Shown here: positions 7,377 through 28,163 of the stretch, piece by piece | Layout of the letters: every line of letters starts with the position of its first letter | Position numbering within the stretch: position 1 is the stretch's first letter | From: Blastopirellula sp. | GTDB lineage: Bacteria; Planctomycetota; Planctomycetia; Pirellulales; Pirellulaceae | Reading direction: 5' to 3' | NCBI GenBank assembly: GCA_002733575.1 | Contig: NVWB01000001.1 | Coordinates: forward strand, 62,001 to 126,000 | DNA: 64,000 nucleotides | Program-made: the position numbers and the translations under genes | The notes under the pieces: generated by a model | Told to the model about the DNA's origin: nothing | The model's database searches: none | The model's input: only the letters and a program-made list of their open reading frames with translations

Positions 7377-8516
7377 TTAGGGCAATTCTAAGGCCGCCGA
7401 CAAAACACCAATGGCTGCGCTCACTTGCTGTACAGTCGAGAACCTCCCAAAACTGAAACGAATGCACTCTGATGCCATTTGGTGATCAAAGCCCATTGCC
7501 TGCAAGACATGGGATGGCTCAATAGATCCGGACGAACATGCTGATTGTGTTGATGCTGCAATCTGTGGCTGTAGACGCGCCAAAAGATCTGAGGCGTCGC
7601 GGCCTTGAAACCGCATCAGAGCATTTCCAGGATGTCGGCATTCCAGCGTTCCAACTAATGTAGCGGTTTGCTTTTCTTCAAGTTTCCTCACGAAAAGGTC
7701 ACGAATACATGCCAAACTTTCGCGCTCGGTTTTTCCGATCTCTCCAACAAGCCGACAGGCTTCACCAAAGCCGACGATTAGTTCTGTCGGCATAGTACCA
7801 CCACGCCGTCCGCCTTGTTGTCCCGCGCCAATAACAACCGGCTTTACCATCCCTGAAGCACCGGGGCCCGTCAGTAGAGCACCAACCCCTTTGGGACCGT
7901 AAAGTTTATGGGCAGAGATGGTGGCCAAGGCGATGTCGAGATCAAGTAGATCAAGATCCATCGCGAGAGGCGCTTGCGCGAGATCGGCGTGAAACAAAAC
8001 ACCGCTGGACCTACAGATGTCGGAAATCGCTCTAAGATCAGCAATTTCACCGTTCTCATTGTTAACGCCAACGATGGATACGAGAGCGGTAGCATCGCTT
8101 AACAACGTTTTCAAATGTTCAGGATCGGGTGCGCCGCAGTCGTTGAGGGCAATAAACCGGGTAACAAACCCACTATATTTCGCTTCATTGAGTATCGAAC
8201 CGTGGTCTGCCGCGCCGATCAAAATTTCTGTGCGCTGAGACCGTTCGGCAATAGCTTGTGCTGTGCGAAACACCATCGCGTTTGCTTCGCTTGCGCCTGA
8301 CGTAAAAATCACGTCATCGCCTTGAAGTCCAAAGAGATTTCCAACTTGCAGGGCTGCCTTCTCAATGGCTGCAGCAGCGTGCCATCCGAGCGCATGATCG
8401 ACTGCGTGTGGGTTAGCAAAAAGCGTAACTGACGCCTCTTGCATGACCTTCAAGACACGCTCATCGACAGGCGTTGAGGCCTGATAATCAAGATAGATGG
8501 TTTCACCAACCTGCAT
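7377..8516 (-). CDS. sspA: Cysteine desulfurase, SspA/DndA-like
   Basis: This 379-residue PLP enzyme of the NifS/IscS class has the PLP lysine in SAHKLYGPKG and the active-site cysteine in QSACSSGS. It takes sulfur from L-cysteine as a protein persulfide. In Dnd and Ssp phosphorothioation systems this enzyme supplies sulfur to the ATP pyrophosphatase (here SspD), and the divergent neighbours sspBCD make that role likely. The start at 8516 (MQVGETIYLDYQ) is chosen because the extended frame to 8606 would run over the sspB start. A housekeeping IscS-like role cannot be excluded from sequence alone. Confidence 0.85.
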   Translation of the reverse strand: MQVGETIYLDYQASTPVDERVLKVMQEASVTLFANPHAVDHALGWHAAAAIEKAALQVGNLFGLQGDDVIFTSGASEANAMVFRTAQAIAERSQRTEILIGAADHGSILNEAKYSGFVTRFIALNDCGAPDPEHLKTLLSDATALVSIVGVNNENGEIADLRAISDICRSSGVLFHADLAQAPLAMDLDLLDLDIALATISAHKLYGPKGVGALLTGPGASGMVKPVVIGAGQQGGRRGGTMPTELIVGFGEACRLVGEIGKTERESLACIRDLFVRKLEEKQTATLVGTLECRHPGNALMRFQGRDASDLLARLQPQIAASTQSACSSGSIEPSHVLQAMGFDHQMASECIRFSFGRFSTVQQVSAAIGVLSAALELP

Positions 8517-8527
8517 GTTGCCCTCAA

Positions 8528-8574
8528 TACTGGACGAAGTCTCCAGTACGTGTATAACGGACCTGCATACTGGA
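8528..8574. promoter_or_regulatory. Repeated TACTGGA half-sites between divergent sspA and sspB
   Basis: The 78-base divergent promoter region holds TACTGGA at 8528-8534, its inverted copy TCCAGTA at 8542-8548, and a third direct copy TACTGGA at 8568-8574. Both direct copies continue with CGA. The arrangement looks like an operator for a dimeric repressor acting on both directions. I see no obvious Ssp-specific regulator gene nearby. Confidence 0.5.
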
Positions 8575-8594
8575 CGATATCCCCAGGAGGTCAA

Positions 8595-9533
8595 GTGAGC
8601 GCACAAGATTTAAAGTCGGACGATTATCGTCCATCTTTCTCGGGACATGAGACCTTTCCTTTACGCTATGGTTGGCTGCAAAAGGCGTATCGCGCCGTCA
8701 GCGAAGCACCAACAGCGAAAGACGCTGTGCATGTTTTCCGGGATCCGGAATCAATCGCACGATTTGGCGTGGGCCGCAACATGGTCGGCGCAATTCGGCA
8801 TTGGGCGATCGGCGCGGGGATACTTGAAGAAACTAAAGAGGGCCTTGAGACGACATGGCTTGGGTCCATGCTGTTCGGCGAGGATGGAATTGATCCGTAC
8901 CTAGAAGAGGATGCTTCACTTTGGCTGCTTCATTGGCATTTGGTCTCCCGTCCTCGGCTCACATCAGCCTATTGGCTGTTTAACGAGTTTAGAGGAGGCA
9001 GTTTTGTTCGGCAGGATATCGTCGCACCTCTTCTTAAACTTGCACAAGAACGTGGGTGGCGCCGAGTGGCGTCAACAACAGTTGATCGGGATCTGCAATG
9101 CCTTCTCAGGACCTATATCGGTGGCCGCGGCTCAAGCGAAGCGGGAGAATCCATACTTGCTGAACTTGGGCTGATCCGTCCGATGGATAAAACGCGGTCG
9201 CGTCTGTCCCGAGGGCGAAAGCCGAATTTACCCAATTCAGTATTCCTTCATTGCTTCAATGAGTTCTGGGCAAAATTTGCACCTGATCAGGCAACTATGT
9301 CATTTGAAAATGCCGCTTATGCGCCCGGTTCCCCGGGCCGAGTATTCTTGCTTGATGAGGATGACATCGTTGATCGCCTTGAGCAGCTCGAAGAAATTTC
9401 AGGTGGAGCATTGGCTTGGTCAGAAACAGCAGGACTGCGACAGATCATCCGCGCCAAAAAACGGTCGATGAAATCGGAGCGACGCATTCTGCGCGAAGCG
9501 CTGATGAGCGATCGCTTGCGGGTGGCCGCATGA
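8595..9533 (+). CDS. sspB: SspB-like DUF4007 protein
   Basis: This 312-residue protein begins with a region typical of DUF4007, including FSGHETFPLRYGWL near residue 15. In the Ssp system SspB is the DUF4007 member, reported to nick DNA during single-strand phosphorothioation. I chose the GTG at 8595 because AGGAGGT stands just before it; the longer frame from 8550 runs through the promoter repeats. The last codons overlap sspC in an ATGA, so sspB and sspC are translationally coupled. No catalytic residues can be named from sequence alone. Confidence 0.8.
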   Translation: MSAQDLKSDDYRPSFSGHETFPLRYGWLQKAYRAVSEAPTAKDAVHVFRDPESIARFGVGRNMVGAIRHWAIGAGILEETKEGLETTWLGSMLFGEDGIDPYLEEDASLWLLHWHLVSRPRLTSAYWLFNEFRGGSFVRQDIVAPLLKLAQERGWRRVASTTVDRDLQCLLRTYIGGRGSSEAGESILAELGLIRPMDKTRSRLSRGRKPNLPNSVFLHCFNEFWAKFAPDQATMSFENAAYAPGSPGRVFLLDEDDIVDRLEQLEEISGGALAWSETAGLRQIIRAKKRSMKSERRILREALMSDRLRVAA

Positions 9534-12500
9534 GCGATTCCGTTTCAATAACACCAAGATTTCGCCGATCGGTTCGCCTCGATACCGATTTTGCCTCGGC
9601 AACTGCAATTGATGGCTTTCACTGTCCGGCTTCTTTCCAAGCGGCCGTGACCTTTATGGCCGCGCACATCGCTGATACGGAACAAGGTGCATTTACGTGG
9701 ACCGGGCCTTATGGCGGCGGCAAGTCGAGCCTGGCGGTTGCGCTTGCCTGTCTTTTTGGTGCACCCAAGCAGATACGAGAACAGGCCGCGTCCTTGTTTG
9801 GCGAGCCAGTGATCGCCGCGTTGAAGGACGCCCTGCCCTATTTCCCATCTCGCTGGGATGTGCTGCCGCTGGTCACTGAACGCCGCTCAATTGCGATACA
9901 GCTTGCAGAGCTTCTAGATCTCACTGTCTCATCAAGTGCATCGGACATCTTAAAAGAAATCGAACGCAGAACGACGGATCGCGGACTTCTTTTGATCATG
10001 GATGAGCTTGGTCGCGGGTTAGAGGCGGCAGCCGACGGAGAAGGCGACCTCCATCTCCTGCAGGACATCGCTGAACTCGCAGCTCGCAGCCAGGGCAAGT
10101 TCATATTCCTCGGAATCCTGCACCAAGCCTTCGAGGAATATGCTGAGCGCCTCGGTCGCAAAGCGCGCGATTCCTGGGCGAAAATTCAGGGGCGGTTTGT
10201 CGATATTTCGATCTCGGTATCGCTTGAGGAGACTATCGAACTAATTGGCGAGGCGCTCGGGCATGAACGCGCTGTCCGCAAAGCTATCCCATTGGCCGAA
10301 GATTGCGTCGAGCAATTGCGCCCCGCACGCAAAAAAACCGAAGCGAAGCGGATGGCCGGAAAGCTTGCACGTACTGCCCCTCTTCACCCGCTGACGGCTT
10401 GCTTGGTGGGTCCGCTCTCACGGCGACGTTTTGGTCAGAACCAACGAAGCGTGTTCTCCTTTCTAAGTTCTGCCGAGCCTTTCGGGTTGCAGGATGCCCT
10501 CAATAAAGAAGCCGTCGATGGTACCTACCCGCCGCATCTTTTGTGGAATTACCTACAGGCCAATTTTGAAGCTGCCATTCTGTCATCACCGGACGGGCGT
10601 CGGTGGGCATTGGCGCATGACGTTCTTGAACGATGTGTAGCGCGCGGTGCAGGTGATCTTGAACAATATGTATTGAAAACCATTGCGATTTTTGAACTGC
10701 TCAAAGACCGCTCGGGACTTGCGACAAATCTTGATACGATTGCACTGGCGCTCAATGATACCAATCGTTCAGATGTAGAGGCGGCGCTCGCACGCCTCGA
10801 ACAGCAATCCGAAATCGTTTTCCGGAAACACACAGGCATATACGTGCTCTACGCGGGATCGGATTTTGACGTCGAGGCTCGTTTGGGGGAAATTCTGTCG
10901 GAACCGACAGACATTGATCTTAACATGGTTCGCTTGCTGGCTGATCTCCAACCGATGCTGGCGAAGCGCCATCATGAGGAAACAGGCGCGATGCGATGGT
11001 TCGAGATGTCTATCGACCCCGCATCCGAGTTGGAGGATTTCAAGCCGCCTAAATACGCCCAGGACATCTTTGGACGCATCGTGTTTGCATTGCCAATGGA
11101 CGGCGAGAGCCAAGAGGAAACCATCAGCGCATGTGAGCGCGCAGCACGCGCTCAAAGTGCATTTCCGTTGATCATTGGCCACCATGCTGACGCAGCCAAA
11201 CTTCTCGATCTTGCGCGGGAACTTGCAGGACTCAACGCTTTGGAACGGAAATTTCCAGAGCTCCGGGGTGACCCGATTGCACGGCGGGAAATCGATGCCC
11301 GTATCACAGAGGTCCGTCAGAAGCTTGAGGATATACTTCATGCCCTGATCGACGAATGTCAGTGGTTTGTTGCAGATCAGAAAGCGCAACGCCTGACCAA
11401 GCGTCTCTTGAACGAGCAGTTATCCACCCTGGCGGATTCGATCTTCAGCGATGGACCACTTATCCGCAATGAGCTTCTAAATTGCTCTGAACCATCCTCA
11501 AATGCGGTTAGTGCGCGAACCAAACTCATGAAACGCATGGCAATGCGCGGTTCCGATATCAATCTTGGGTTTGACGGGAAGAATTATCCCGCAGAACGCG
11601 GGCTCTACATATCCCTCCTGCAGGAAACTGGAATTCATGTTGAGGGCGATTTTGGCGCTCCTTCCAAAGGCGACACGCTGTATCCATTGTGGCAAGTGGC
11701 TGACAGTCTGCTCTCATCAGTGCAGGGAGTTGTGGGAGCCGATAAGGTAATTCAGGCTTGGGGTAAGGGCCCGATTGGGTTGAAGGCCGGACTTGGACCG
11801 GTGTACTTGTCTGCCTATATTTTGTCGCGTCGTGATCGCGTCGCGGTTTACGGCGAAGGTATCTTTCAAGCGAGCTTCAATGAACTTTGTGTTGAATTTC
11901 TTGCGCGTGCCACCAAGGACATTGGTCTGCGCCGGGTTGAGATGGAAGGCTTTGTTGGAGACACGCTTGAGACCCTCGGTGGACTTTTAAAAATCAAAAG
12001 GCCTGCCGAACCTCTTTTGGTTGCACGAACAATTATTGGTGAGTTCGATTCGCTGGTGCCTTGGACTTCCAGAACCCAATCGCTTTCCCCCCAGACACTC
12101 AGGGTACGCGAAATTCTCAAACGCGCCAGTGATCCCAACAAACTCTTGTTTGATGATTTACCTCGCCTGACCAAGCCTTTGGCCGATGGCAGCTTTGATG
12201 CGAAAGCAACGGCAGTCCTGCTCAGAGATGCACTAGCAGAAATGCGCGCTGCCTATCCAAAAGTGCTCGATGATTTGAAAGATCTGATGCTGCGGGAACT
12301 GGACGTGCGCAGCCACAGCGAGGACGCTTTCAAAGACTTGCGCGACAGATCAGACAACATCCGGAATATTGGTGGCGACTTGCGCCTAGAGGCTTTCGTC
12401 GGACGACTGACGCAGTTTCACGGCACGCGCGAGGATATGGAAGGGCTTGCTGGTGTCGCTGTAAACAAGCTTCCCAGAGACTGGAACGACGGCGATCGCG

Positions 12501-12820
12501 AACGCGCTGCCGTCGGCCTTACCGAGCTTGCGACTGAATTTCTAAAGACAGAAACAATGGCTCGGGTGAAAGGTCGCAAAGATAGGCGCCATGCCATGGC
12601 CGTTGTGGTTGGCAAGGAGAACATGCCGCATTCGCTTTTTAGCGAATTCCAAGTTGCCGATGTCGATTGGCATGATGTCGAAACACTGGCTGGAACTCTT
12701 GATCGCGTTTTGAAAGAAGCCGATCATCAGAGCCGCGAGATTATTCTGGCAGCTTTGATCGAGGTCACATCCAAATACCTCAATACAAGCGATGAACTCC
12801 GCGTGGGAGAACGGGCATGA
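9530..12820 (+). CDS. sspC: SspC-like large P-loop ATPase
   Basis: This 1096-residue protein has a Walker A motif GPYGGGKSS at residues 59-67 and a Walker B-like IMDELGRG with the acidic pair at about 158-159. The rest is long and mostly helical, without another domain I can name. In SspABCD systems the third modification gene encodes an ATPase acting with SspB and SspD, which fits this position. The gene overlaps sspB (ATGA at 9530) and sspD (ATGA at 12817). The assignment rests mainly on gene order and the P-loop; BREX-type ATPases are a distant alternative, but no pglZ or methylase is present. Confidence 0.75.
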   Translation: MSDSVSITPRFRRSVRLDTDFASATAIDGFHCPASFQAAVTFMAAHIADTEQGAFTWTGPYGGGKSSLAVALACLFGAPKQIREQAASLFGEPVIAALKDALPYFPSRWDVLPLVTERRSIAIQLAELLDLTVSSSASDILKEIERRTTDRGLLLIMDELGRGLEAAADGEGDLHLLQDIAELAARSQGKFIFLGILHQAFEEYAERLGRKARDSWAKIQGRFVDISISVSLEETIELIGEALGHERAVRKAIPLAEDCVEQLRPARKKTEAKRMAGKLARTAPLHPLTACLVGPLSRRRFGQNQRSVFSFLSSAEPFGLQDALNKEAVDGTYPPHLLWNYLQANFEAAILSSPDGRRWALAHDVLERCVARGAGDLEQYVLKTIAIFELLKDRSGLATNLDTIALALNDTNRSDVEAALARLEQQSEIVFRKHTGIYVLYAGSDFDVEARLGEILSEPTDIDLNMVRLLADLQPMLAKRHHEETGAMRWFEMSIDPASELEDFKPPKYAQDIFGRIVFALPMDGESQEETISACERAARAQSAFPLIIGHHADAAKLLDLARELAGLNALERKFPELRGDPIARREIDARITEVRQKLEDILHALIDECQWFVADQKAQRLTKRLLNEQLSTLADSIFSDGPLIRNELLNCSEPSSNAVSARTKLMKRMAMRGSDINLGFDGKNYPAERGLYISLLQETGIHVEGDFGAPSKGDTLYPLWQVADSLLSSVQGVVGADKVIQAWGKGPIGLKAGLGPVYLSAYILSRRDRVAVYGEGIFQASFNELCVEFLARATKDIGLRRVEMEGFVGDTLETLGGLLKIKRPAEPLLVARTIIGEFDSLVPWTSRTQSLSPQTLRVREILKRASDPNKLLFDDLPRLTKPLADGSFDAKATAVLLRDALAEMRAAYPKVLDDLKDLMLRELDVRSHSEDAFKDLRDRSDNIRNIGGDLRLEAFVGRLTQFHGTREDMEGLAGVAVNKLPRDWNDGDRERAAVGLTELATEFLKTETMARVKGRKDRRHAMAVVVGKENMPHSLFSEFQVADVDWHDVETLAGTLDRVLKEADHQSREIILAALIEVTSKYLNTSDELRVGERA

Positions 12821-13650
12821 GTACAACACGACACGTTTTAGGTCTTTCGGGAGGGCGCGATAGCGCTGCTTTGGCCATATTCATGCGTCAAAGACATCCG
12901 GAAATTGAAGTCGAATATTTCTTCACTGACACAGGCAAAGAATTGCCTGAAGTGTACGAGTATCTGACCCGCCTTGAAGGCTATCTTGGCAAGCCAATAC
13001 GACGCTTAAACCCGGATCGGGATTTTGACTTTTGGCTCAAGAGTTACAAGAGCTATCTGCCTTCCGCGCAGTCCCGGTGGTGCACACGCCAGCTCAAGCT
13101 TCGCCCGTTCGAAAAATGGGTGCGTGAGTTTCTTCAAGCTGGTGAAACAGTCATCTCTTATGTCGCGATCCGCAGCGACGAAGAATACCGAGAGGGCTAT
13201 CAGTCAAACAAAGAGAAGCTCCTGGTCAGGTTACCTTTCAAAGATGTCAGCATTGATAAAGCGGGTGTTATTGAGATCCTAGAAGGATCAGGATTAGGAC
13301 TTCCGGATTACTATAGGTGGCGCAGCCGCAGTGGCTGCACATTTTGCTTCTTTCAACAAAAAATCGAATGGGTGCGCTTGCAGAAAGAGCATCCAGAAGC
13401 GTTTGAAGAAGCCAAACGATATGAAAAGACTGCGATTGAGCACGGGTCACCATTCACGTGGAGCCAGGGCGAGTCACTTACCGACCTTGAGCAGCCGGAA
13501 CGTCAGGAACAGATCAGATTGGATCACGAGAAGCGTTTGGCTAGGGCACGCGCGCGAATTCAGGCAAACCCATTGCGCCCAGATACACCGTTGGACTTAG
13601 ACGACGTATACGGCGGAGCTGCCAAAGCATGCCTCACGTGTCACAAGTAA
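12817..13650 (+). CDS. sspD: SspD-like ATP pyrophosphatase (PAPS reductase family)
   Basis: This 277-residue protein has the PP-loop motif SGGRDS at residues 10-15 and an FFTDTGKELPE segment typical of the PAPS reductase/DndC group. Cysteines occur as WCTRQLK, CTFC and C-terminal CLTC, a set that could hold an Fe-S cluster as in DndC. Such enzymes adenylate the DNA backbone and insert sulfur delivered by the cysteine desulfurase. It is coupled to sspC by an ATGA overlap and ends the sspBCD unit. DndC is the alternative name, but dndB, dndD and dndE are absent and a DUF4007 gene is present, which favours Ssp. Confidence 0.85.
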   Translation: MSTTRHVLGLSGGRDSAALAIFMRQRHPEIEVEYFFTDTGKELPEVYEYLTRLEGYLGKPIRRLNPDRDFDFWLKSYKSYLPSAQSRWCTRQLKLRPFEKWVREFLQAGETVISYVAIRSDEEYREGYQSNKEKLLVRLPFKDVSIDKAGVIEILEGSGLGLPDYYRWRSRSGCTFCFFQQKIEWVRLQKEHPEAFEEAKRYEKTAIEHGSPFTWSQGESLTDLEQPERQEQIRLDHEKRLARARARIQANPLRPDTPLDLDDVYGGAAKACLTCHK

Positions 13651-13844
13651 AGGTAAGGGTGAGCTCGTTGACGGCAAGGACCTTTATCAAGTCATTGCTC
13701 CAACGGAATAATCGCCCACAACCGTTGCGGCTTTCAAAGAAGGCACTAGAGTGATTTTCAACAGATAAACTTAACGGGAAAAGGCGAGCAACTTTTCTCT
13801 AAGAGCAATTGACCAACACGACAGGGGCAATCTAGGCAACAACC
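13651..13844 (+). other. Spacer between sspD and the two-ATPase gene
   Basis: This 194-base gap probably carries the promoter for the next two genes. I see no strong terminator hairpin, so read-through from sspBCD is also possible. Confidence 0.4.
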
Positions 13845-16199
13845 ATGTTTACAGTAACAGCGCGTACAGTATTGGAGCTTGGAGCCGAACTCATCTCGTC
13901 GGATGTAATTGCGTTTTATGAACTGATAAAGAACGGTTTTGACGCCAAATCAAAATCTGGCGTTACCATTCGTTTCCAAATCCTTTTGACACAACGCGCC
14001 GCACAAGTAATAGGACGCGCCTCCATACAGGACTTGAGCGAGCTCCGCAATTTTGTGGCTCACCAAATTGAGAGAGGCGCAAGCTCGTCCGTCAAGACCG
14101 CTTTTGAAGATGAGATGGATGAGGCAACTTCCTTGGAAGAGTTGCGTCGCATCGTCAGCGCAGCACCACGGAAGTATAACAGAATAATTGTCGAAGATAC
14201 TGGCGATGGCATGTCAGCAGGCGATCTGAAGAGCGCCTTTCTAGTCATCGGAACTTCCTCTCGACGCGATGCTGTGGCGAAGGCTTTGGACAGCGGCGAA
14301 GAGGCTTCGCCGTATTTGGGTGAAAAGGGTATTGGTCGCCTTAGCGCGATGCGGCTCGGTGACACGCTCAAAGTAATGAGTGCGACTAAGGCCGACACGA
14401 ACCAAAATATCCTCAAGATCGATTGGAACGATTTTTCCGAGCCAGGTCTGATGCTCGAAGATATCGATGTTAAGCCTCGCCGAGGCCCAAAAAAGGAAGA
14501 CCCATCCTACCAAGGAACGAAACTCTATATTGGTGAACTCCAAAAATCTTGGTCGCGCGAAAAAGTCACCGAACTAGGAAAATATGATTTTGCCAGACTG
14601 ATAGATCCCCGGATGCCTCAAAAGCAGCGCCCAAAAGTAACCATCTTCTACAATGATGAGCGCATTGCCATTCCCAGACTACCGAGCTCTTTACTTGAAG
14701 CTGCTCATGCAACGATGATGGGCCGATTTGAGTATATCGAAGGTGAGCCCATTTTGACATGCAATGCCGAAGTGAAAGACTTGGAGTTCGAGCATCCTCC
14801 TGAGACCCACACATATGTGCTCGGGTCGAAAGAAATGGAAGGCGTGTTCAGCGATGAGCTTGGTGAAGTCCTTGACGACGCCCTAGAGGAGTTGGGACCA
14901 TTCGAGTTCGAACTTTACTGGTACAATCGTCGAAGGTTGAGCCGGGTCGATAGCACTGGACAAAACAAATCTCTTCGGGAATTGCAGGATCAATGGTCTG
15001 GGATTATGCTCTTTAGAGATGGCTTTCGGGTCTTTCCATATGGAGAAGATCGCGATGACTGGTTGGATTTGGATCGCAAAGCGCTGAGGCGCAGTGGCTA
15101 TCTCTTCAACAAGACACAATTCATCGGACGCATATCGATATCTCGAACCAAGAACCCACATCTGATCGACCAAACAAATCGCGAAGGTCTTCGTGAAAAC
15201 GAAGAGCAGCAAGCTTTCCTAAATATTGTGAAGTGGGCGACGCAATATGCATTCGGCGACGCATTCGCAACAACGGAGCGAGAGCACAAGCCACAGAAGA
15301 CGAAAATTGTTGGCGCTGCGAGCCGCCTGAAGACTCTGGAAGGACGTGTAAAAACCGCCGTCAGCGGGCTCCGCGACGTTTTGCCGCCTGATCAAACGAA
15401 GCCGGTCGATGAAGTCCAACACACGCTCCAAGAACTACTTGCATTTGCTGAGGCCTTGCGAGGACGAATTGATGAGGCGGAAAAGGAGGGTCGGCAGCTA
15501 CTAGACATGGCAGGCGTCGGATTGATGGTAGAGGTCGTTGCACACGAGCTGGCTCGATCCTCTGAAAACGCTCTTGATGTCCTAGGTGCGCTGAAAAATG
15601 CTGATGTGTCTGATGAGGTAAGATCACAACTTTCAACATTGCAGTCTGCTCTAAAGTCTCTCAGTAAAAGAATCCGTATCCTGGATCCCATGAGTATTTC
15701 TGGCCGCCAAACACGAGAGGCGTTCGATCTAAAGAAAGTTGTCGGCGAGGTTTTGGACGCGCATCAATCGCAATTTGATCGCGAAAACATTACAGTTATA
15801 CGCAACGACGACAGCGCGCCTGTCCGCGTGCATGCTGTCCAAGGGATGGTCATCCAAGTTCTTGAGAACCTGATATCAAATTCTGTGCATTGGTTAGATG
15901 TACGTGGTCGTCGCGAAGCCAATCTTAGCCCGACCATTCGAATATCAGTTGAAGCAAACCCTCCCCTCATTACCTTCGAAGACAATGGGCAAGGGATCAG
16001 CTCTGAGAATTCTGACAAGGTATTTCACCCGTTCTTTTCTCTGAAGGAAAAGCGCAAGAGACGGGGACTGGGTTTATATATTGCGCGTGAGATCGCTTCA
16101 TATCACAAGGGATCCCTTTCATTATCCAACCATGTGGATGAAGAAACGAACCGTCTCCATCGTTTTTTGTTTGAGCTGCCTGAGGAAGCAAGCCGATGA
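13845..16199 (+). CDS. Protein with two GHKL ATPase domains (MORC/Hsp90-like and histidine-kinase-like)
   Basis: This 784-residue protein has two ATP-binding folds. The N-terminal one shows N-box ELIKNGFDA (26-34), EDTGDGM (117-123) and GEKGIGRLS (159-167), as in MORC/Hsp90 ATPases. The C-terminal part reads like a histidine kinase: an H-box-like VVAHELARS with His at 567, N-box ENLISNS (about 672), EDNGQGIS and GLGLYIA (about 740). The middle 200-450 looks like an S5-type and linker region. No transmembrane segment is visible, so it should be cytoplasmic. It overlaps the receiver-like gene by ATGA. I infer that the pair forms a phosphorelay that senses infection or controls an effector; this is untested. 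Confidence 0.75.
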   Translation: MFTVTARTVLELGAELISSDVIAFYELIKNGFDAKSKSGVTIRFQILLTQRAAQVIGRASIQDLSELRNFVAHQIERGASSSVKTAFEDEMDEATSLEELRRIVSAAPRKYNRIIVEDTGDGMSAGDLKSAFLVIGTSSRRDAVAKALDSGEEASPYLGEKGIGRLSAMRLGDTLKVMSATKADTNQNILKIDWNDFSEPGLMLEDIDVKPRRGPKKEDPSYQGTKLYIGELQKSWSREKVTELGKYDFARLIDPRMPQKQRPKVTIFYNDERIAIPRLPSSLLEAAHATMMGRFEYIEGEPILTCNAEVKDLEFEHPPETHTYVLGSKEMEGVFSDELGEVLDDALEELGPFEFELYWYNRRRLSRVDSTGQNKSLRELQDQWSGIMLFRDGFRVFPYGEDRDDWLDLDRKALRRSGYLFNKTQFIGRISISRTKNPHLIDQTNREGLRENEEQQAFLNIVKWATQYAFGDAFATTEREHKPQKTKIVGAASRLKTLEGRVKTAVSGLRDVLPPDQTKPVDEVQHTLQELLAFAEALRGRIDEAEKEGRQLLDMAGVGLMVEVVAHELARSSENALDVLGALKNADVSDEVRSQLSTLQSALKSLSKRIRILDPMSISGRQTREAFDLKKVVGEVLDAHQSQFDRENITVIRNDDSAPVRVHAVQGMVIQVLENLISNSVHWLDVRGRREANLSPTIRISVEANPPLITFEDNGQGISSENSDKVFHPFFSLKEKRKRRGLGLYIAREIASYHKGSLSLSNHVDEETNRLHRFLFELPEEASR

Positions 16200-18193
16200 C
16201 CTTAGAAGAAATCTTGAAAGACAAAGGTATTTCTCGCGCACTTATTGTAGATGACTGTTTTGATGAAATTCCGTTGGCCAATGATCTTGCTGATATTGAT
16301 GCCCAATGGGCAAACTTCCACGATGATTGGGACGATGACATCGAGATCGCTGTGGGGAGTGTGTACGAAGGCAATTTGGATGAGCCATACGAGCTACGAA
16401 GTAATGATGCCTATGTTGAAGCTCTTTGGAACTTACGAAAAAACATCGGGGCCGAAGCAATTTTCGAAGATTATGAGGCGGCACAACGTTTCGATATTGA
16501 AGCGGTTGCACGCCTCGAAGCATATCTTGGAGAACTCGGATTAAACTGTGTGCGGGCCGGCAGAGCATTTGCAGATCAGCCCGTTGAAACGGACCTGATT
16601 GTAATCGACCTTTTTCTTGGTGCCACTCAGGACCCGGGCGCAGCAGACCTGTCAAAAAGCGGCCTGAGCAGAGTGGCCAAGCAGTACGGGCCAGAAATGC
16701 CGCCAGTTATCCTCTTCTCAAACAGCTCCCGGCTCGCGCACAAGAAGGAAGAGTATCGCGACGTTGTCGGTCTTCTAGAGTCGGGTTTTCGTATCCTAGG
16801 TAAGTCGGAATTGAAGACTGACGGCGCACTTAAGCGACAGCTTGAGCGATTGGTCGTCAATCGCAATGAGACCAAAGCTCTAGCTGGTTTTTTGGACGCG
16901 TTGGAAAAAGGGATGGCAGAAGCGTCAAATCGAACGCTTTCTCTGATGCGGGGCATGAATCTCTCTGACCTGTCACAAGTTCGACAATTGCTTTTGGAAT
17001 TCGAGGGCAAGGCGATGGGGGCCTACCTCGTTGATGTTTTTGATCGTGTTTTGCAATACGAAATCGAGGGTCAGGAAGCAATTATCGCTGCCGCCGATGA
17101 ATTGAGCAAGCTCGACGAGCTTAGCCCCGGTCCGCCCTATTTGGCGGGCGAAATCAAAACGCAAGATTTGGTCGCACGGATGATTTCTCAGGCCGGTGCT
17201 AGATTGCCTTTGGGTGGGAGCGACGCTTTTCCGGTGGTGTTTGGAGATGTTTTCATTGAGATAAATGAGCAAGTTGATGACAACGAACTTCATCTGCAAG
17301 CTGATCAACAGCTTGGGGTCGTAGATGAAGCACAAGAAGCCGTCGTTGTCCCGCAACAAGATGAATCCTCTGAAGTCTTCTTAGTAGTGACACCCGCGTG
17401 CGATCTTGTCCGAGGGGCAGCAGAGTCCGTTCTTCTACTGAAAGGGCGGTTTCGCCCAATCACGGATCAAAGTTGGCTCTATAAGGGTGACAGAAGCCCT
17501 GCGGTTTCAATTCAAGGCACGTTGTGCCGTATCGATTGGGATCTTCAAAAATACCAAACGAGGGAGTTCTCCAACATCAAGGGCGCGATCGACAAGGGTG
17601 AACTGGTCAGAGTCGCACGCCTTCGTCAGCCTCACACCCTCGAATTACAGCAGAAACTACTGACATCATTGGGACGGGTCGGTTTGCCTGCACCCATGCC
17701 TGCAAGCATCAAGACAACAATTGATGCATACATTTACGGAGCCGATCGGAAGATCAAGCGGGTCGAAGTGCCTGAACTTTCTGTGGGAAGTGCCTGTTTC
17801 GTTGGACGAGACAAGGATGCGAACAGGGTTGTGAGTTTGGTTCTAGCAGAAGCTGCCTGTGAAAATGTCCTAAAAGCGCTCGACAACTTATCTGAAGATG
17901 ACGTCCATGCCTCCGGCAAAGCCGCGCTCAAAGCGATGACATCCTCAACCGAGCTTATTCAGCGGCTGGAAGCCGGCGTCCAACTCAAAAGCCCGGATGA
18001 AGGAGCTTCAAAGGAGATCAAGGTCGAGACCAAGGGGGGACAGGTGACAGTATTGCACCTAATTTGGAATGGCGAACAACCTCCGGACGAACAACCGGTA
18101 AAAAGCAAATTGTTGCAGGGGCTGGTTTTTCATGTGCGGACGCATTCAGAGCAACTAGAGCAAGCAAATATGCCAACTGAACAAGAAGCCTGA
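16196..18193 (+). CDS. Receiver-like protein with long unknown C-terminal region
   Basis: The first 210 of 665 residues look like a divergent receiver domain: the acidic pair VDD at 18-20, a phospho-acceptor candidate Asp138 in VIDLFLG, a Ser-rich strand end in VILFSNSS, and the conserved lysine in ILGKSEL (Lys203). A large insertion (about 30-110) separates the acidic pair from the acceptor. The remaining 450 residues match no domain I know; they contain an acidic stretch near 355-395 and a TPACDLVRG segment. No DNA-binding output domain is evident, so this is not an ordinary response regulator. It is coupled to the kinase-like gene (ATGA), its likely phosphodonor. Confidence 0.65.
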   Translation: MTLEEILKDKGISRALIVDDCFDEIPLANDLADIDAQWANFHDDWDDDIEIAVGSVYEGNLDEPYELRSNDAYVEALWNLRKNIGAEAIFEDYEAAQRFDIEAVARLEAYLGELGLNCVRAGRAFADQPVETDLIVIDLFLGATQDPGAADLSKSGLSRVAKQYGPEMPPVILFSNSSRLAHKKEEYRDVVGLLESGFRILGKSELKTDGALKRQLERLVVNRNETKALAGFLDALEKGMAEASNRTLSLMRGMNLSDLSQVRQLLLEFEGKAMGAYLVDVFDRVLQYEIEGQEAIIAAADELSKLDELSPGPPYLAGEIKTQDLVARMISQAGARLPLGGSDAFPVVFGDVFIEINEQVDDNELHLQADQQLGVVDEAQEAVVVPQQDESSEVFLVVTPACDLVRGAAESVLLLKGRFRPITDQSWLYKGDRSPAVSIQGTLCRIDWDLQKYQTREFSNIKGAIDKGELVRVARLRQPHTLELQQKLLTSLGRVGLPAPMPASIKTTIDAYIYGADRKIKRVEVPELSVGSACFVGRDKDANRVVSLVLAEAACENVLKALDNLSEDDVHASGKAALKAMTSSTELIQRLEAGVQLKSPDEGASKEIKVETKGGQVTVLHLIWNGEQPPDEQPVKSKLLQGLVFHVRTHSEQLEQANMPTEQEA

Positions 18194-18343
18194 TGTGCAA
18201 ACCTTTTTACGCTTAACACTTCGACGCACTGTGCGGATATCAGTGAGGGTGGTAGACTTTATGGCTAGATCCATGAACAATAACCGGGCTCCAGAGCAAG
18301 GATCCTTCCTTCGGATTCTCATTCGTTGGAAGGACTCCGCTGC
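18194..18343 (+). other. Spacer before the helicase operon
   Basis: These 150 bases separate the kinase/receiver pair from the helicase unit. The stretch holds GGAAGGA just before the helicase GTG; no clear terminator hairpin is visible. Confidence 0.4.
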
Positions 18344-19978
18344 GTGAATCACACCGCGCCAGGTATATCGATTAAAGAACTGCTCCTGGCCGCAAAACCA
18401 AGGTCAGTCCGCCAATTGTTGCCCCAGCCCACCTTAGACCTCATTGAAAGGATGTCTCCGGGTTTACTGGAGACTGACGAAGCCAACCGAGTTGCTATTG
18501 CGACAATTGATCCAACGGAAGCCATACATGACGCGAAGACACGGTCTCAGATCATCAGATTACTTCCATTGTCAAAGGCACGTGAATTCTGCGAGAAACT
18601 TGGTCTTGCGGTCGGCCGTAGCCCCTACGACGCAATTGAAGAGGGTATCCAACGTATTGGTATCGAACCGCTCTGCGATTTTTTCGGGATTGTAGATGAT
18701 CCAAGAGCCCCGAAGCCAATGGCGCCTTCATCACATGAGGCAGCCGTTTCCTACGGGTTGTTTCCCCACCAAAGAGTGGCAGCAGGCAAGGTCGCAACAG
18801 CACTGCGGCAACCACCCCGAAAAGTTATCCTTCACATGCCGACGGGGGCGGGCAAGACGCGCACAGCAATGCATCTCGTAGCGCGACACCTCCGCGAATT
18901 TGGTCCGACAGTAGTTGTATGGCTTGCACAGAACCGGGAATTACTCGACCAAGCTTCCGAGGAATTTGAAAAGGCGTGGCTACCACTCGGAGATCGGTCG
19001 GTTCAACTGATGCGTTTTTGGGGTAATAGGCGCGCGCCACTTGAAGAGTTGAAAGATGGTTTGGTGGTCGCGGGCCTTGCAAAGATGGCGAGCCTGGATG
19101 CTCGAGATGTGGCGACGCTGCTACAACTCGCCGACCGAGCGTCTCTGACGATAATCGATGAAGCACATCAAGCGATAGCACCCACTTACGCGAGTGTTCT
19201 CCGAGCCTTAACTTCAAAACGACCCGAAAATGCACTCCTCGGTTTGACCGCGACACCTGGGCGCAGTTGGTCAGAGATTGAGGAAGACAAACGCCTCTCT
19301 GATTTCTTTGAGGGACAAAAAGTTCTCTTGGAAGTTGAGGGCTATGACGATCCAGTATCATTTCTGATGAAAGAGAAGTACCTCGCACGTCCGGTTTTCC
19401 GGCAGTTGGAAGCGCCGTCAGAGGTGCATTTGGATAAAGCAGATCAAAGTACGATTCACAATGACCCGGATCTTTCGGACGAGTTCCTCGAAAAGCTTGG
19501 GCGTGACACGGCGCGCACGGAAGCAATCCTCGGGGCCATCGTCGATGCGATCACAAGGCATGACCGCATCATTGTATTTGCTCCATCCGTTGAGAACGCC
19601 AAGCTCCTTCAAGCGATGCTAACAATTAATGACATCGAAGCGCTTTTCGTCTCCGGCGAGACTGAAACGACCGAACGAGAACGAAGAATACGCCGATATA
19701 AGTCAAATGCCCGCAATAAAATTGTCATGGTGAACTTTGGCGTACTAACAACCGGATTTGATGCACCACGCACAAGTTGCGCGATTATCGCAAGGCCGAC
19801 GCGGTCTCTCGTACTTTACAGCCAGATGGTTGGAAGAGCGACCCGCGGGCTACGAGCTGGCGGTAACGAAGAAGCAGAGATCATTACTATCACGGATCCG
19901 AGCCTGCCGGGCTTTGGGAGCGTGACTGAAGCATTTTCGAATTGGGAGGACGTTTGGAATGAACCAGTCAGCGAATGA
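18344..19978 (+). CDS. SF2 DEAH-box helicase
   Basis: This 544-residue superfamily 2 helicase shows motif I MPTGAGKTRT, motif II IIDEAH, motif III GLTATPGR, motif V VLTTGFDAPR and motif VI QMVGRATRG, the layout of type I/III restriction and UvrB-like translocases. A domain of about 130 residues precedes the helicase core and is unassigned. I chose the GTG at 18344 because GGAAGGA stands nine bases upstream; a TTG at 18326 is possible but weaker. The end overlaps the MORC-like gene by 20 bases. SF2 helicases next to MORC-like ATPases and nucleases are a known restriction-type pattern. Confidence 0.85.
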   Translation: MNHTAPGISIKELLLAAKPRSVRQLLPQPTLDLIERMSPGLLETDEANRVAIATIDPTEAIHDAKTRSQIIRLLPLSKAREFCEKLGLAVGRSPYDAIEEGIQRIGIEPLCDFFGIVDDPRAPKPMAPSSHEAAVSYGLFPHQRVAAGKVATALRQPPRKVILHMPTGAGKTRTAMHLVARHLREFGPTVVVWLAQNRELLDQASEEFEKAWLPLGDRSVQLMRFWGNRRAPLEELKDGLVVAGLAKMASLDARDVATLLQLADRASLTIIDEAHQAIAPTYASVLRALTSKRPENALLGLTATPGRSWSEIEEDKRLSDFFEGQKVLLEVEGYDDPVSFLMKEKYLARPVFRQLEAPSEVHLDKADQSTIHNDPDLSDEFLEKLGRDTARTEAILGAIVDAITRHDRIIVFAPSVENAKLLQAMLTINDIEALFVSGETETTERERRIRRYKSNARNKIVMVNFGVLTTGFDAPRTSCAIIARPTRSLVLYSQMVGRATRGLRAGGNEEAEIITITDPSLPGFGSVTEAFSNWEDVWNEPVSE

Positions 19979-21794
19979 AAATGAAGGTGAGATTGGCGCA
20001 GAGATCATTCCCCCGGAACTTGCCGTACGCGCCATGCGTGATAGCGGCTATAGGAACACCGACTATGCTCTCGCTGAGTTAATTGATAATTCCGTACAAG
20101 CCAACGCGACGCAAGTTGATGTCATCTGTCTCGAGGTCATGAAGCAGGTTAGTCAGAGAAAAAGTCGGCGTATTGAACAGATCGCGGTCGTCGACAACGG
20201 AGACGGCATGACGCCAGAAACGCTCAGGATCGCGTTACAGTTCGGCAACGGAACACACTTAAAAGACCGAAAGGGGATTGGGCGCTTCGGCATGGGGCTT
20301 CCGAATTCTTCAATATCGCAATGCCGACGAGTAGAAGTCTGGTCTTGGCAGGCTGGACCAAAAAATGCGATGTGGACATATTTGGACGTCGACGAAATCG
20401 AAACTGCCGGCCTGAAAGCCGTACCTCGACCGGTGCCCAAGCCGGTTCCGGAAGAATGGCGGGAACGTTCAGAGCTCTTCGGAACTTCTGGGACACTGGT
20501 TCTATGGTCCAACTTTGACGATCACCGACTTCAATGGCGCGGTGCAAAGGCGACACTCGAGAACACCGAGACTTTAATTGGACGCATGTATCGTAAGTTC
20601 ATTGATGCAGGTGATCTAACAATACGCCTTGCGGCCTATCATGATGGTGAAGCGACATTTGACGCACCAACGCGCGTCAACGATCCGCTATATATCACCC
20701 CACAATCATCCACTCCTCCTCCCTTTGACAAGGAGCCGATGTTTCAGACATGGGGAGAGGGCGATCAGGAGTTTTCGATCGAGATTGATGGTTCGACCCA
20801 TCTCGTTACCGTCCGTATCAGCTGGGCAAAAGAAGACACCGTCACGCGGGGCTCTTCTGCAGATCGAGGATCGACGGCCTATGGCAAACATGCCGCAAGA
20901 AACGTGGGAGTCTCTGTCGTGAGGGAGCGGCGCGAGCTTGAGCTCGATAAGGCATGGACAATTGGATACGACCCTCGGGAAAGATGGTGGGGTATTGAAG
21001 TCGAGTTTCCGTCGGCACTCGATGAAATCTTCGGCGTCACCAACAATAAGCAACACGCCAACACATTCGCCGCTATGGCTCAGTTTGACTGGGAAGAGGA
21101 AGCCGAACCCGGTGAGCAGCGATCGGTGTTCAGGGAACGTACCCTCGCCAGCGGCGATCCTAGAGGGCTGCTGATAGACATAGCGGAGTACATCCAAGAT
21201 CAGCTCGATGAAATCCGGCGCAGGATCAAGGCTCAGACAAAGGGCAAGCGCAGTACCCAAAAAAGGCATGACGACCCTGATGTCGACGATCAGGCAACCG
21301 ACAAGTTTAATGAACGCGCCGAGGGCGGCCACGAGGCTTCTTCAGACGAGGCTGGGTTTTCTGATGATGACCAGTCCAGGCTGCAAGACGATCTAACCGA
21401 AAATGATCACTACTCGGCTGAAGGTGCAAAGAACATCGTCGATGCTATCGTCAGCCGAAAGCGCAAAGTCCAATTTTCAACCGGACATCTCGACGGTCAT
21501 CACTTCTTCTCCACAAAACAATTCGGAGATCTGACGAAGATTACTTTCAATACGAACCACCCGATATATGAACAGCTGCTTGAAGCCTTGGACCCAGACA
21601 CGGAGGACGACACTGATGCAGATCTTCTTGATCGTGTTCATAAGGCTTCTGATACGCTGAAGCTTCTCTTCGCGGCTTGGGCTCGATACGAACTTGAAGA
21701 AACCCAGAAGCACGATGATCTTATGGAAATGCGCCAGGAATGGGGTAAGATGACGAAAGTGTTCCTGCGGGAAAATGCTGAGGACAGTAAGTGA
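19959..21794 (+). CDS. MORC-like GHKL ATPase
   Basis: This 611-residue protein has a clean Bergerat fold at its N terminus: N-box ELIDN (40-44), VVDNGDGM (77-84) and GIGRFGMGLP (106-115). This is the MORC/MutL type seen in prokaryotic paraMORC proteins. A probable S5-like domain follows to about 350, then a charged linker (about 400-470) and a C-terminal helical part. Comparative genomics places such proteins in restriction-like systems with SF2 helicases and endonucleases, as here. The gene overlaps the helicase gene upstream and the phospholipase-D-type gene downstream (GTGA), so the three are coupled. No nuclease motif is visible in this protein itself. Confidence 0.8.
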   Translation: MNQSANENEGEIGAEIIPPELAVRAMRDSGYRNTDYALAELIDNSVQANATQVDVICLEVMKQVSQRKSRRIEQIAVVDNGDGMTPETLRIALQFGNGTHLKDRKGIGRFGMGLPNSSISQCRRVEVWSWQAGPKNAMWTYLDVDEIETAGLKAVPRPVPKPVPEEWRERSELFGTSGTLVLWSNFDDHRLQWRGAKATLENTETLIGRMYRKFIDAGDLTIRLAAYHDGEATFDAPTRVNDPLYITPQSSTPPPFDKEPMFQTWGEGDQEFSIEIDGSTHLVTVRISWAKEDTVTRGSSADRGSTAYGKHAARNVGVSVVRERRELELDKAWTIGYDPRERWWGIEVEFPSALDEIFGVTNNKQHANTFAAMAQFDWEEEAEPGEQRSVFRERTLASGDPRGLLIDIAEYIQDQLDEIRRRIKAQTKGKRSTQKRHDDPDVDDQATDKFNERAEGGHEASSDEAGFSDDDQSRLQDDLTENDHYSAEGAKNIVDAIVSRKRKVQFSTGHLDGHHFFSTKQFGDLTKITFNTNHPIYEQLLEALDPDTEDDTDADLLDRVHKASDTLKLLFAAWARYELEETQKHDDLMEMRQEWGKMTKVFLRENAEDSK

Positions 21795-22702
21795 AAATTG
21801 GCGATAACCTGTTGTCGGTTCTCCGCAGCGCCCAAAAAAGAGTTCGTATCGCAGCGCCTTTCATTAAGGTGCCAGCTCTTGAGCGTGCATTGTCGGTTGT
21901 TCCAGACGACGTTGAAGTGACATGTGTGACGCGCTGGAGGCCAGAGGACATTGCCAGTGGTGTTTGTGACCTTGAGATATTTGATTTGATAAAGAGCCGG
22001 GATCGGTCCGTTCTGCTAATCCACCCTCATCTCCACGCAAAATTCTTCGCGGCTGATACGGCCTGCCTCGTTGGTTCGGCCAATCTATCGTATACGGCAC
22101 TCGGATGGCGGATACCGTCAAACATTGAACTGTTGGTTAAACTCGACACTTTCGATCACGGGCTGGATGATTGGTGGCGAGCGCTGCAAGCCGAGAGTAT
22201 AAACGCAACTGATGAGATACGCTTTGCGATAGAGCGAGAAGCTGCGGAACTTAGAGCCACCAAAAAGCCTATCGCGCGGCCGGAGGCCGACCAACACAAA
22301 GACTATGACGACTCAACTTGGGTGCCTGAGTGCCCGAGATGGACCGGCCTTTGGGAGGTCTATTCTGGTGACGAAGAACAGTTACCGAGCAGTGCACTTG
22401 CCTCCGCCAAATCTGATCTCGCGACCTTAAGCCTGCCCCCAGGTATGAATTTTATGGGATTTGAAAAGGCACTGCGAACGGCGTTTCGCCATACAAGAAT
22501 TTTTGATGAGATTGACAAACTCGCTCAAGAAGGGCTGACCGATCTCGCAGCCAGCTCTTTGTTGATCGAGAAATTTGATATCGAATCGGGGAATGTCCCC
22601 CGTCGATGGCAGCTGATCAAGCGCTGGCTAAGCGAACTCTATCCGGAAGATTTTAGGGTGGAGGCAAACCAGGAAGTTCTTCTCAAAGGGAAGAACTTAT
22701 GA
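21791..22702 (+). CDS. Phospholipase-D-type nuclease with one HKD motif
   Basis: This 303-residue protein has a single HKD motif: His82, Lys84 and Asp89 in HLHAKFFAAD, followed by GSANLS (95-100). A single-motif member must dimerise to build the active site, as in Nuc/BfiI-type nucleases. The start is the GTG at 21791, overlapping the stop of the MORC-like gene. It is the best candidate for the DNA-cutting subunit of the helicase-MORC unit. The last 150 residues are unassigned and may bind partners. DISARM also has a PLD protein, but its DUF1998 and methylase genes are absent. Confidence 0.75.
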   Translation: MKIGDNLLSVLRSAQKRVRIAAPFIKVPALERALSVVPDDVEVTCVTRWRPEDIASGVCDLEIFDLIKSRDRSVLLIHPHLHAKFFAADTACLVGSANLSYTALGWRIPSNIELLVKLDTFDHGLDDWWRALQAESINATDEIRFAIEREAAELRATKKPIARPEADQHKDYDDSTWVPECPRWTGLWEVYSGDEEQLPSSALASAKSDLATLSLPPGMNFMGFEKALRTAFRHTRIFDEIDKLAQEGLTDLAASSLLIEKFDIESGNVPRRWQLIKRWLSELYPEDFRVEANQEVLLKGKNL

Positions 22703-22753: not shown

Positions 22754-23656
22754 CTACAAATGAAGCTCTAGCGCTTTCACTAAATATCTACTGTGTCTTT
22801 CGTAAACACCCTTCTCCAATCCGGTCAACTCAAGGTCAGCTGAGCCCTCTTTTATTATCTTAGGAACTGATTGGATTCGTTGTGTTAGGTCTGCTCTTAG
22901 TCCGTTTGCCCAAGATCTGACCCGCTCTGTTGTATCCGGATCAACTAGATTTCCCAAGTCGCGATACGACTCGTTTAGCCTTGCAGACGGACTCCCAACT
23001 GACTTTCGGCAGGTAGGGCAGGCGAGATATCCGAGAAAAGGGAATTTGTGCTCGCTGAGTAAGAGCCCGGTCAAATAGATCTCAGATGGTAGAAACCACC
23101 CGGAATTTGGTTGCCATTCGGAAGTAACGTAATCCAGTAGCTGCATATTTGAAGCGCTCTTCTTGTAAGTTTCAAAAAAGGCCTCAATGGCTCGTGCAAA
23201 AAAACAGTCATAGTGCCAGTCACTACAGCATTTTGGATAGCCAAGACTGTGTTCTTCACCGACTTCATGACACCGACCGTCTTCATAAGCGCTCGCGATA
23301 GTCTTATTGCAGGTCAGCCAAAAGATCCTTTGCGGAGTTTGAAAACCCGCCATGAACGCGGCCCGTAATGCTTCATCATCCAATTTCAGCCGCCGACTAG
23401 GATGGTATACTGGAATCGTAGCGAACCCCCTGAAGACATCAACGTCACCAAATAGTTCCACTAAATCCAAGTACAGCTTTTCTCGTTCTGGATTATGGGT
23501 CATCGCAAAGAAGGAAGGTTTTTCGGATTCCAACACTTTGAGAATTTGCAACTTTTCACAGAAGGCCGATTGCAAATCGATATGAGCGCTCTGATGCTCA
23601 TCAAACTTCTGAGCTACAAGTTCGTACCATTGTTCATGGGACTTTGAAGTTCTCAT
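22754..23656 (-). CDS. Unknown protein with a YPxCC motif and a CPTC pair
   Basis: I do not recognise this 300-residue protein with confidence. It contains GYPKCCSDWHYDCF around residues 138-151, recalling the GYPxCC motif of DUF483-type proteins, and a second cysteine pair in ACPTCRKS. These could bind a metal. It faces the helicase-MORC-PLD operon and ends 51 bases from it, at the edge of the island. It may be cargo of the island or an unrelated gene; nothing here shows which. Confidence 0.6.
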   Translation of the reverse strand: MRTSKSHEQWYELVAQKFDEHQSAHIDLQSAFCEKLQILKVLESEKPSFFAMTHNPEREKLYLDLVELFGDVDVFRGFATIPVYHPSRRLKLDDEALRAAFMAGFQTPQRIFWLTCNKTIASAYEDGRCHEVGEEHSLGYPKCCSDWHYDCFFARAIEAFFETYKKSASNMQLLDYVTSEWQPNSGWFLPSEIYLTGLLLSEHKFPFLGYLACPTCRKSVGSPSARLNESYRDLGNLVDPDTTERVRSWANGLRADLTQRIQSVPKIIKEGSADLELTGLEKGVYERHSRYLVKALELHL

Positions 23657-28097: not shown

Positions 28098-28163
28098 TCT
28101 ATACAGAATTGCGCGTCGAATAGGAATCCACAAACGTCCACATTGCTTGATATTTGCATCCGG

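Follow-up and report, generated by a model that had tools for sequence, protein, structure and literature searches.

The described defense systems closest to the locus analyzed here are SspABCD-SspFGH and SspABCD-SspE, in which genes for DNA phosphorothioation (PT) are adjoined by interference genes; according to the passages on these systems in PMC8092258, SspFGH strikes unmarked DNA and SspE requires the mark. The same study, from 2021, counts 2,211 of 2,678 sspBCD loci with neither SspE nor SspFGH, and one of the two explanations that it considers is the existence of additional restriction partners. We analyzed a locus of Blastopirellula sp. that combines the same modification genes with a candidate counterpart, namely, a trio of genes for a superfamily 2 (SF2) helicase (HEL), a MORC-like ATPase (MORC) and a PLD-family nuclease (PLD), and with a histidine kinase-receiver pair (HK-RR). 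The locus consists of nine genes at positions 7377-22702 of a 64,000-nucleotide stretch of DNA, hereafter the window (G000:C436:62001-126000), from a 9.25-Mb draft genome with a completeness of 88%. We consider it fairly likely that this is a PT restriction-modification locus in which SspABCD marks self DNA and the trio is the interference arm. SspABCD thus probably has a third interference module in the trio, which is recurrently linked to ssp genes, seldom shares a plasmid record with SspG and has intact motifs.

The marking genes and the trio are:

7377..8516, minus strand: sspA, cysteine desulfurase (PADLOC SspA 1.4e-100; Pfam Aminotran_5)
8595..9533, plus strand: sspB, DUF4007 protein (PADLOC SspB 9.9e-96; PF13182 6e-77)
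9530..12820, plus strand: sspC, BrxC-like P-loop ATPase (PADLOC SspC, E=0, 1094 bits)
12817..13650, plus strand: sspD, PAPS-reductase-like protein (PADLOC SspD 4e-135)
18326..19978, plus strand: HEL, SF2 helicase, RadD- and PbeA-like (Pfam ResIII and Helicase_C; motifs intact)
19959..21794, plus strand: MORC-like GHKL-S5 ATPase (Pfam HATPase_c_3; model matches Morc3)
21791..22702, plus strand: PLD-family nuclease with a single HKD motif (PLDc_2 2.4e-5, under the Pfam cut-off)

The complete SspABCD modification module is thus present by PADLOC profiles. The original prediction, made from the sequence alone, had recognized SspA-, B-, C- and D-like genes at these positions, followed by a two-GHKL ATPase plus receiver pair and by a helicase-MORC-PLD trio, all tightly coupled within units and all running in the same direction. 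The profile and domain matches, together with the intact motifs of the trio, bear out these identities, and the coupling is apparent from the coordinates: overlaps of 4 bases on the same strand join sspB to sspC, sspC to sspD, HK to RR and MORC to PLD, the overlap between HEL and MORC is 20 bases, and gaps of 194 bases (sspD-HK) and 132 bases (RR-HEL) separate the units. The common direction does not extend to sspA, which is divergently oriented relative to sspB.

Unlike the SspFGH- and SspE-containing systems, this genome, 88% complete, yielded neither SspE nor SspG. SspE was sought as DUF262 combined with a C-terminal nuclease; the sole DUF262 gene of the genome encodes a 370-aa PD-T4-2-like protein, which was therefore rejected as an SspE candidate. 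The search that found no SspG in this genome (G000) detects SspG in genomes G059 and G291; SspF and SspH were not searched genome-wide. The DndFGH-type profile TIGR03238 is silent in the genome, but equally silent in every control genome. No SspE, F, G or H profile is among the PADLOC matches listed for the trio proteins.

Several other described systems resemble parts of the locus. DndCDEA-PbeABCD is likewise PT-linked; as described in the relevant sections of PMC6459918, PbeA joins PLD and a ResIII-type helicase in one protein, and the system halts replication without visible cutting. HEL matches PbeA (5e-22 over residues 140-333, PADLOC) but, in contrast to DndCDEA-PbeABCD, the present locus contains ssp rather than dnd genes, separate PLD and helicase genes, and a MORC-like ATPase in place of the SMC-like PbeC; neither an SMC-like gene nor a PLD-helicase fusion is found among its nine genes. 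In CglI and NgoAVII (R2N2), as in the trio, the PLD nuclease and the SF2 helicase are separate proteins, and their tested DNA cleavage occurs only with ATP hydrolysis (PMC4267653, in part). These systems differ in possessing a C5-methylase where the present locus has PT genes, and the pertinent passages of the same source include no MORC subunit. Profile searches revealed no DNA methyltransferase among the nine locus proteins, and Pfam gave no match to B3 on PLD or to Z1 on the helicase, although diverged domains could escape Pfam. The restriction operons predicted by Iyer et al. in 2008 combine MORC with an SF2 helicase and, in a few cases, with an HKD nuclease, and a looping role was proposed there for prokaryotic MORCs; the species lists include Nitrococcus and Roseovarius, but the text names no PAPS reductase, desulfurase or phosphorothioation (PMC2292703). 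Finally, PLD weakly matches DrmC of DISARM (2.9e-6), with neither DrmA nor DrmB among the PADLOC matches listed, and only the GHKL part of MORC (residues 22-144) matches MzaB, so that the full MzaABCDE set of MZA is not present.

The trio proteins and their conserved motifs

The solved structure closest to HEL is that of the repair helicase RadD (3.5e-24), which HEL also matches at 1.6e-36. The structural model of MORC, with a predicted local distance difference test (pLDDT) score of 86.5, matches Morc3 (Z 21.5, 309 residues, root-mean-square deviation (rmsd) 4.0), and also MutL (Z 18.6) and Hsp90s (Z about 17), the matched region spanning approximately residues 8-428; as modeled, the protein is a GHKL ATPase joined to an S5 domain. 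By eye, GVSVVRERREL at residues 317-327 fits the GhXhhpXXRhl motif that Iyer et al. give for MORC proper at all but one position, hence the name 'MORC-like'. PLD carries its HKD motif, HAKFFAADTACLVGSAN, at residue 82; comparison of PLD with solved structures returned nothing meaningful.

The motifs are retained across relatives. Among the sequences that cover the respective positions, the helicase has the Walker A Lys in 65/65 and DEAH in 74/74, and its motif VI keeps Q, G and R in 77/77; D43, N44, D79, G83 and G108 of MORC are kept in all 78. An HKD-type motif was identified in 61 of the 65 PLD proteins, the one in the window included.

Recurrent linkage of the trio to ssp genes

We searched the MORC alignment against 84,980 species genomes and examined 79 loci, which represent the best 80 of 296 MORC relatives (best-segment identity 43-83%, scores 583-947 bits), with 216 weaker relatives outside this set. 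Annotated plasmid loci, together with the window, served to build the gene profiles, to which none of the 79 loci contributed; an unannotated 'SspC' from a Treponema plasmid was placed in the SspC training set. At a threshold of at least 100 bits within 10 kb of MORC, sspB, C or D is present in 73 of the 79 loci (SspC in 70, SspD in 66, SspB in 64, SspA in 51), along with the helicase in 77, and SspF, G or H in none. By record titles, the trio is represented in Proteobacteria, Cyanobacteria, Actinomycetota, Bacteroidota and other lineages. The ssp genes and the trio are co-directional in 39 loci, convergent in 19 and divergent in 15, which suggests that the linkage has been re-made or rearranged, yet kept.

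The plasmid comparison covered 60 of the 69 sspD records, 40 of the 51 MORC records and 60 of the 358 AbiEii records. All 12 MORC matches with at least 39% identity are on sspD records, within 12 kb in each case (11 are among the listed sspD records; in Hymenobacter, sspD comes from the annotation). Of the plasmid helicase matches, 12 of 13 are at ssp loci, the exception being Bacillus badius, absent from the sspD records listed. The Treponema plasmid locus includes annotated DUF4007 and desulfurase-like genes and no annotated SspD. Four of the five MORC-bearing contigs in the viral collection also carry ssp genes. As a side observation, viral-collection contigs L145-L148, with ssp and trio genes, hint at phage-like or other mobile carriers.

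As a control from the same window, AbiEii was found on listed sspD records in 3 of the 60 records listed (of 358, including many near-identical Sinorhizobium plasmids), in one case within 15 kb. The Tiamat-like protein, a second control, occurs on five plasmid records, which is too few to use; none of the five is among the sspD records listed (60 of 69). SspD itself exceeds 280 bits in just 8 of the 396 genomes sampled from the order. The original prediction was exposed to the objection that homologs of its units might occur mostly without sspBCD; for the trio, the opposite holds among its closest relatives, in the genomic loci as well as on the plasmids.

Complementarity with SspFGH and an apparently exchangeable nuclease

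For the most part, the trio and SspFGH occur in complementary fashion, the pattern that an interference module should show. All 33 plasmid SspG records are on listed sspD records (69 in all), and the trio and SspG share a single plasmid record compared with 6.2 expected (P 0.0011, from manually entered counts and with relatedness ignored); the 13 trio records in this comparison are the 12 with close MORC matches and Rhodobacteraceae SC52, with looser matches. Of the 73 trio loci linked to ssp, 60 have neither SspE nor SspFGH in reach. A single cyanobacterial SspE query identified four plasmids, none of them a trio record, which is an undercount given that it missed the SspE-like gene of Hymenobacter.

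The nuclease appears to be the variable member of the trio. At 60 bits, PLD is missing in 14 of the 79 loci, and the place of PLD is visible in 12 of these; the remaining two, L074 and L080, where the contig ends at MORC, were dropped from the comparison. A protein resembling HTH-HNH nucleases is encoded just upstream of the helicase in 7 of the 12 PLD-less loci (L062, L070, L072, L073, L077, L086 and L087, all cyanobacterial by title) vs 1 of 65 loci with PLD. Pfam detects HTH and HNH_4 in the L072 protein, which the other HTH-HNH proteins match at no less than 564 bits. Two more PLD-less loci, L091 and L093, carry SspE. With HNH replacing PLD in some loci, the helicase and MORC look like a fixed core and the nuclease like an exchangeable part. 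The HTH-HNH protein is also encoded in the truncated loci L074 and L080.

Various other genes were noticed in this part of the loci. The same slot in L067 (L067:8818-9978) holds a protein that combines a DACNK sensor with a DisA-type cyclase and suggests nucleotide signaling at an ssp locus. Between sspD and the trio, GmrSD_N (DUF262) proteins are encoded at L035:6565-8639, in a locus that also encodes a SIR2-domain protein, and at L051:6474-7520. A DndB-family gene is located between sspD and the trio in L022-L025, L031, L039 and L050 (by PF14072 in L022, L039 and L050, and by our own profile in the others), although DndB is a protein familiar from dnd systems.

The kinase-receiver pair

In the window, the interval from sspD to the trio is occupied by two genes:

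13845..16199, plus strand: HK, histidine kinase with an additional GHKL ATPase at its N terminus (HATPase_c_3, HEF_HK, HATPase_c; H-box VAHELAR)
16196..18193, plus strand: RR, response-regulator-like protein, a receiver with a helical insert (residues 1-230, receiver fold by model) followed by a C-terminal part

The N-terminal GHKL ATPase of HK, BbrUII-like by NCBIfam, precedes the H-box and a second GHKL kinase domain, and the H-box His is present in 19/19 HK homologs. In the RR model, residues 1-230 adopt the receiver fold (best Z 14.1, 124 residues, rmsd 2.3), with a helical insert of approximately 80-90 residues, in agreement with the predicted pair; no Pfam model matches RR. The receiver signature D, D, D, S, K is invariant in 18/18 homologs. 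The H-box His accompanied by HATPase domains, together with the D-D-D-S-K receiver, identifies a two-component pair. HK-RR shares with orthodox two-component systems an H-box kinase and a receiver with all signature residues, and differs from these, as well as from Detocs, a kinase-receiver defense system with an infection-triggered executioner, by the extra N-terminal GHKL ATPase, the helical insert in the receiver and the linkage to ssp. The C-terminal half of RR, modeled largely with low confidence, contains a Cys that is invariant in 18/18 homologs. Foldseek produced no match to the whole RR model at E 0.001 or better, the RR profile found nothing meaningful among solved structures, and no relative of the receiver was detected in viral contigs.

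HK-RR is mostly found near ssp genes, and with either interference module. All six plasmid RR records have sspD within 13 kb, and all six also carry SspG. Beyond the genome of the window, HK-RR was identified in 11 genomes (in samples of 396 and 392), 9 of these with ssp in reach; SspF, G or H is in reach of HK-RR in five of the nine (G291, G556, G562, G571 and G606), and in four genomes (G291, G448, G562 and G606) HK-RR separates sspC from sspD and is oriented like them. HK-RR accompanies 6 of the 79 trio loci; in 4 of these, as well as in the window, it occupies the slot between sspD and the trio that elsewhere holds the DndB-family gene.

As a partner of two different interference modules that at times lies inside the marking operon, HK-RR is better explained as a regulator or sensor of the phosphorelay type, on the modification side, than as an effector. 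Its candidacy as an effector was set aside on the same two grounds. It is doubtful that HK-RR is an infection-triggered executioner with a toxic C-terminal part, after the manner of Detocs: the invariant Cys in a C-terminal part without a Pfam match would fit such a role, but the association with two interference modules and the position between sspC and sspD in four genomes are regulator-like. Tentatively, the marking operon may have a phosphorelay of its own, in which a MutL-like ATPase-histidine kinase fusion would read the state of the DNA or of its PT and, by way of a receiver whose output domain is new, would set marking or release the interference module at hand, be it SspFGH or the trio.

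Proposed mechanism and alternatives

A mechanism can be proposed from the gene identities, intact motifs, tight recurrent linkage and complementarity with SspFGH, all of which are observed directly. SspA-D would put sulfur on self DNA. The helicase, MORC and PLD would assemble as a complex, with the helicase scanning or moving along DNA, the MORC-like dimer closing on it as a clamp or loop, and the PLD dimer presumably cutting DNA that carries no mark or too little of it. The HK-RR phosphorelay, attached to the modification operon, would probably tune marking or restriction, with its extra GHKL ATPase sensing DNA or infection state. The original prediction of a new PT-dependent defense configuration survives in part, the trio being a recurrent sspBCD partner that is complementary to SspFGH; the part assigned to HK-RR as an effector does not, given that HK-RR accompanies SspFGH too and can lie between sspC and sspD.

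Several observations weigh against this interpretation. The 79 loci are not independent, with many from Streptomyces and Nostoc, and with L063 and L065 coming from one assembly. In six loci (L029, L030, L048, L060, L061 and L095), no ssp gene reaches 100 bits; a contig end truncates all but L061 on one side or both, and L061 shows just weak SspA and SspC matches at the far end of the locus. Genomes G033, G140, G428, G874 and G1005, with looser MORC matches (182-309 bits), lack ssp in the stretch viewed, and a MORC relative on a Roseivivax plasmid (28% identity) adjoins Druantia rather than ssp; among the six looser-MORC genomes, only G276 (199 bits) has ssp nearby. The notion that every MORC relative is PT-linked was accordingly discarded, and one MORC lineage appears, from these sequences, to be dedicated to ssp. 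The Spearman correlations between trio and SspB-D distances (0.30-0.49), and between those of the helicase and SspA (0.23), are lower than the correlations within sspBCD (0.71-0.81) and within the trio (0.51-0.55). An Agrobacterium plasmid (CFBP7129) is the one record shared by the trio and SspFGH. An SspE-like gene scores above 150 bits in 6 of the 79 loci (three of these matches arise by construction, the profile having been built from three of the 79 loci) and is partial at the edge in 7 actinobacterial loci; the Hymenobacter trio plasmid carries an SspE-like gene as well. The trio can thus be stacked with SspE or SspFGH. PLD remains under the Pfam cut-off, and three full-length PLD proteins lack the motif Asp. 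HK-RR occurs without ssp in G279, on a 6-kb contig, and in G601, with none in 20 of 23.6 kb, and is adjoined by AbiE genes in Rhizorhabdus.

Rather unlikely, in our assessment, is that the trio resembles SspE in being switched on by the host PT mark, then attacking phage DNA and remaining silent without marks. Such licensing is how SspE works with the same marking genes, according to parts of PMC8092258 and PMC9646914; some trio loci also contain an SspE-like gene, and the distance correlations suggest that the trio has been swapped between ssp lineages. On the other hand, none of the three trio proteins has an SspE- or DndB-type domain by Pfam, and SspFGH, which the trio seemingly replaces on plasmids, acts on unmarked DNA (PMC8092258, in part). 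It is improbable that the trio is no weapon and instead performs housekeeping, its RadD-like helicase, MutL/MORC-like ATPase and nuclease resolving nicks or ends left by PT insertion. The affinity of HEL with RadD and the MutL match of the ATPase fold, nearly as good as that with MORC, are in line with this role, but 33 of the 69 plasmid sspD records carry SspG, with the trio present in just one of them, which means that marking does not need the trio, and PLD is replaced by an HNH-like protein in seven loci. That the genes are chance neighbors in a defense island without a functional link is very improbable: although Tiamat-like and AbiE genes are present in the window as well, ssp linkage in 73/79 loci and 12/12 plasmid matches, against 3/60 listed AbiEii records, is hard to reconcile with chance when SspD is as rare as in the order sample.

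Locus boundaries and neighboring genes

The ORF (open reading frame) of sspA reaches back to a TTG at 8606, but the ATG at 8516 is the more likely start; for sspB, the GTG at 8595, preceded by AGGAGGT, is the more likely one. Between these two genes lies a pair of putative regulatory sites:

8528-8548 and 8568-8588, no strand assigned: two operator-like boxes of the TACTGGA-N7-TCCAGTA type, in direct repeat

The boxes are 21-base inverted repeats, 40 bases apart, and the second one overlaps the sspB ribosome-binding site. A pattern built from these two sites finds no third copy in the window, so that neither HK-RR nor the trio can be assigned to a common regulator on the basis of the boxes. 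The promoter scan scored below the shuffled mean, and the terminator scan 1.5 standard deviations above it.

On the sspA side, two further defense loci are encoded on the minus strand. The protein at window positions 1067-5620 matches PADLOC TmtA at 1377 bits and is presumably of the Tiamat type, and an AbiEii/AbiEi toxin-antitoxin pair (5620-7238) adjoins sspA; with the Tiamat-type and AbiE genes beside ssp, the island holds at least three defense systems. An AbiE pair is also located 3' of HK-RR in Rhizorhabdus (L004). Directly past the PLD gene, a 300-aa protein without a Pfam or PADLOC match is encoded on the minus strand (22754-23656). An IS66 transposase (26535-28133) flanks the island on the right and is followed by metabolic genes (AMP-ligase, dehydrogenases, CoA-transferase, P450).

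Implications

No publication of the trio-ssp or HK-RR-ssp linkage was found in the literature searched, a scope that excludes supplements, figures, subscription papers and most preprints, and the main text of two recent PT/BREX surveys does not mention MORC in the portions covered (PMC10853773, PMC12839542). The trio-ssp locus would thus be a kind of PT restriction-modification that we did not find described, although MORC-helicase operons as such were already predicted in 2008. As a named, portable module, the trio would provide an answer for part of the sspBCD loci that lack a known partner. It is a compact set that bears on how PT marks separate self from non-self, and it would tie MORC-like ATPases, which in eukaryotes are linked to chromatin, to a mark on the DNA backbone. 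HK-RR, in turn, raises the possibility of phosphorelay control of PT immunity which, if true, would be an epigenetic defense run by two-component signaling.

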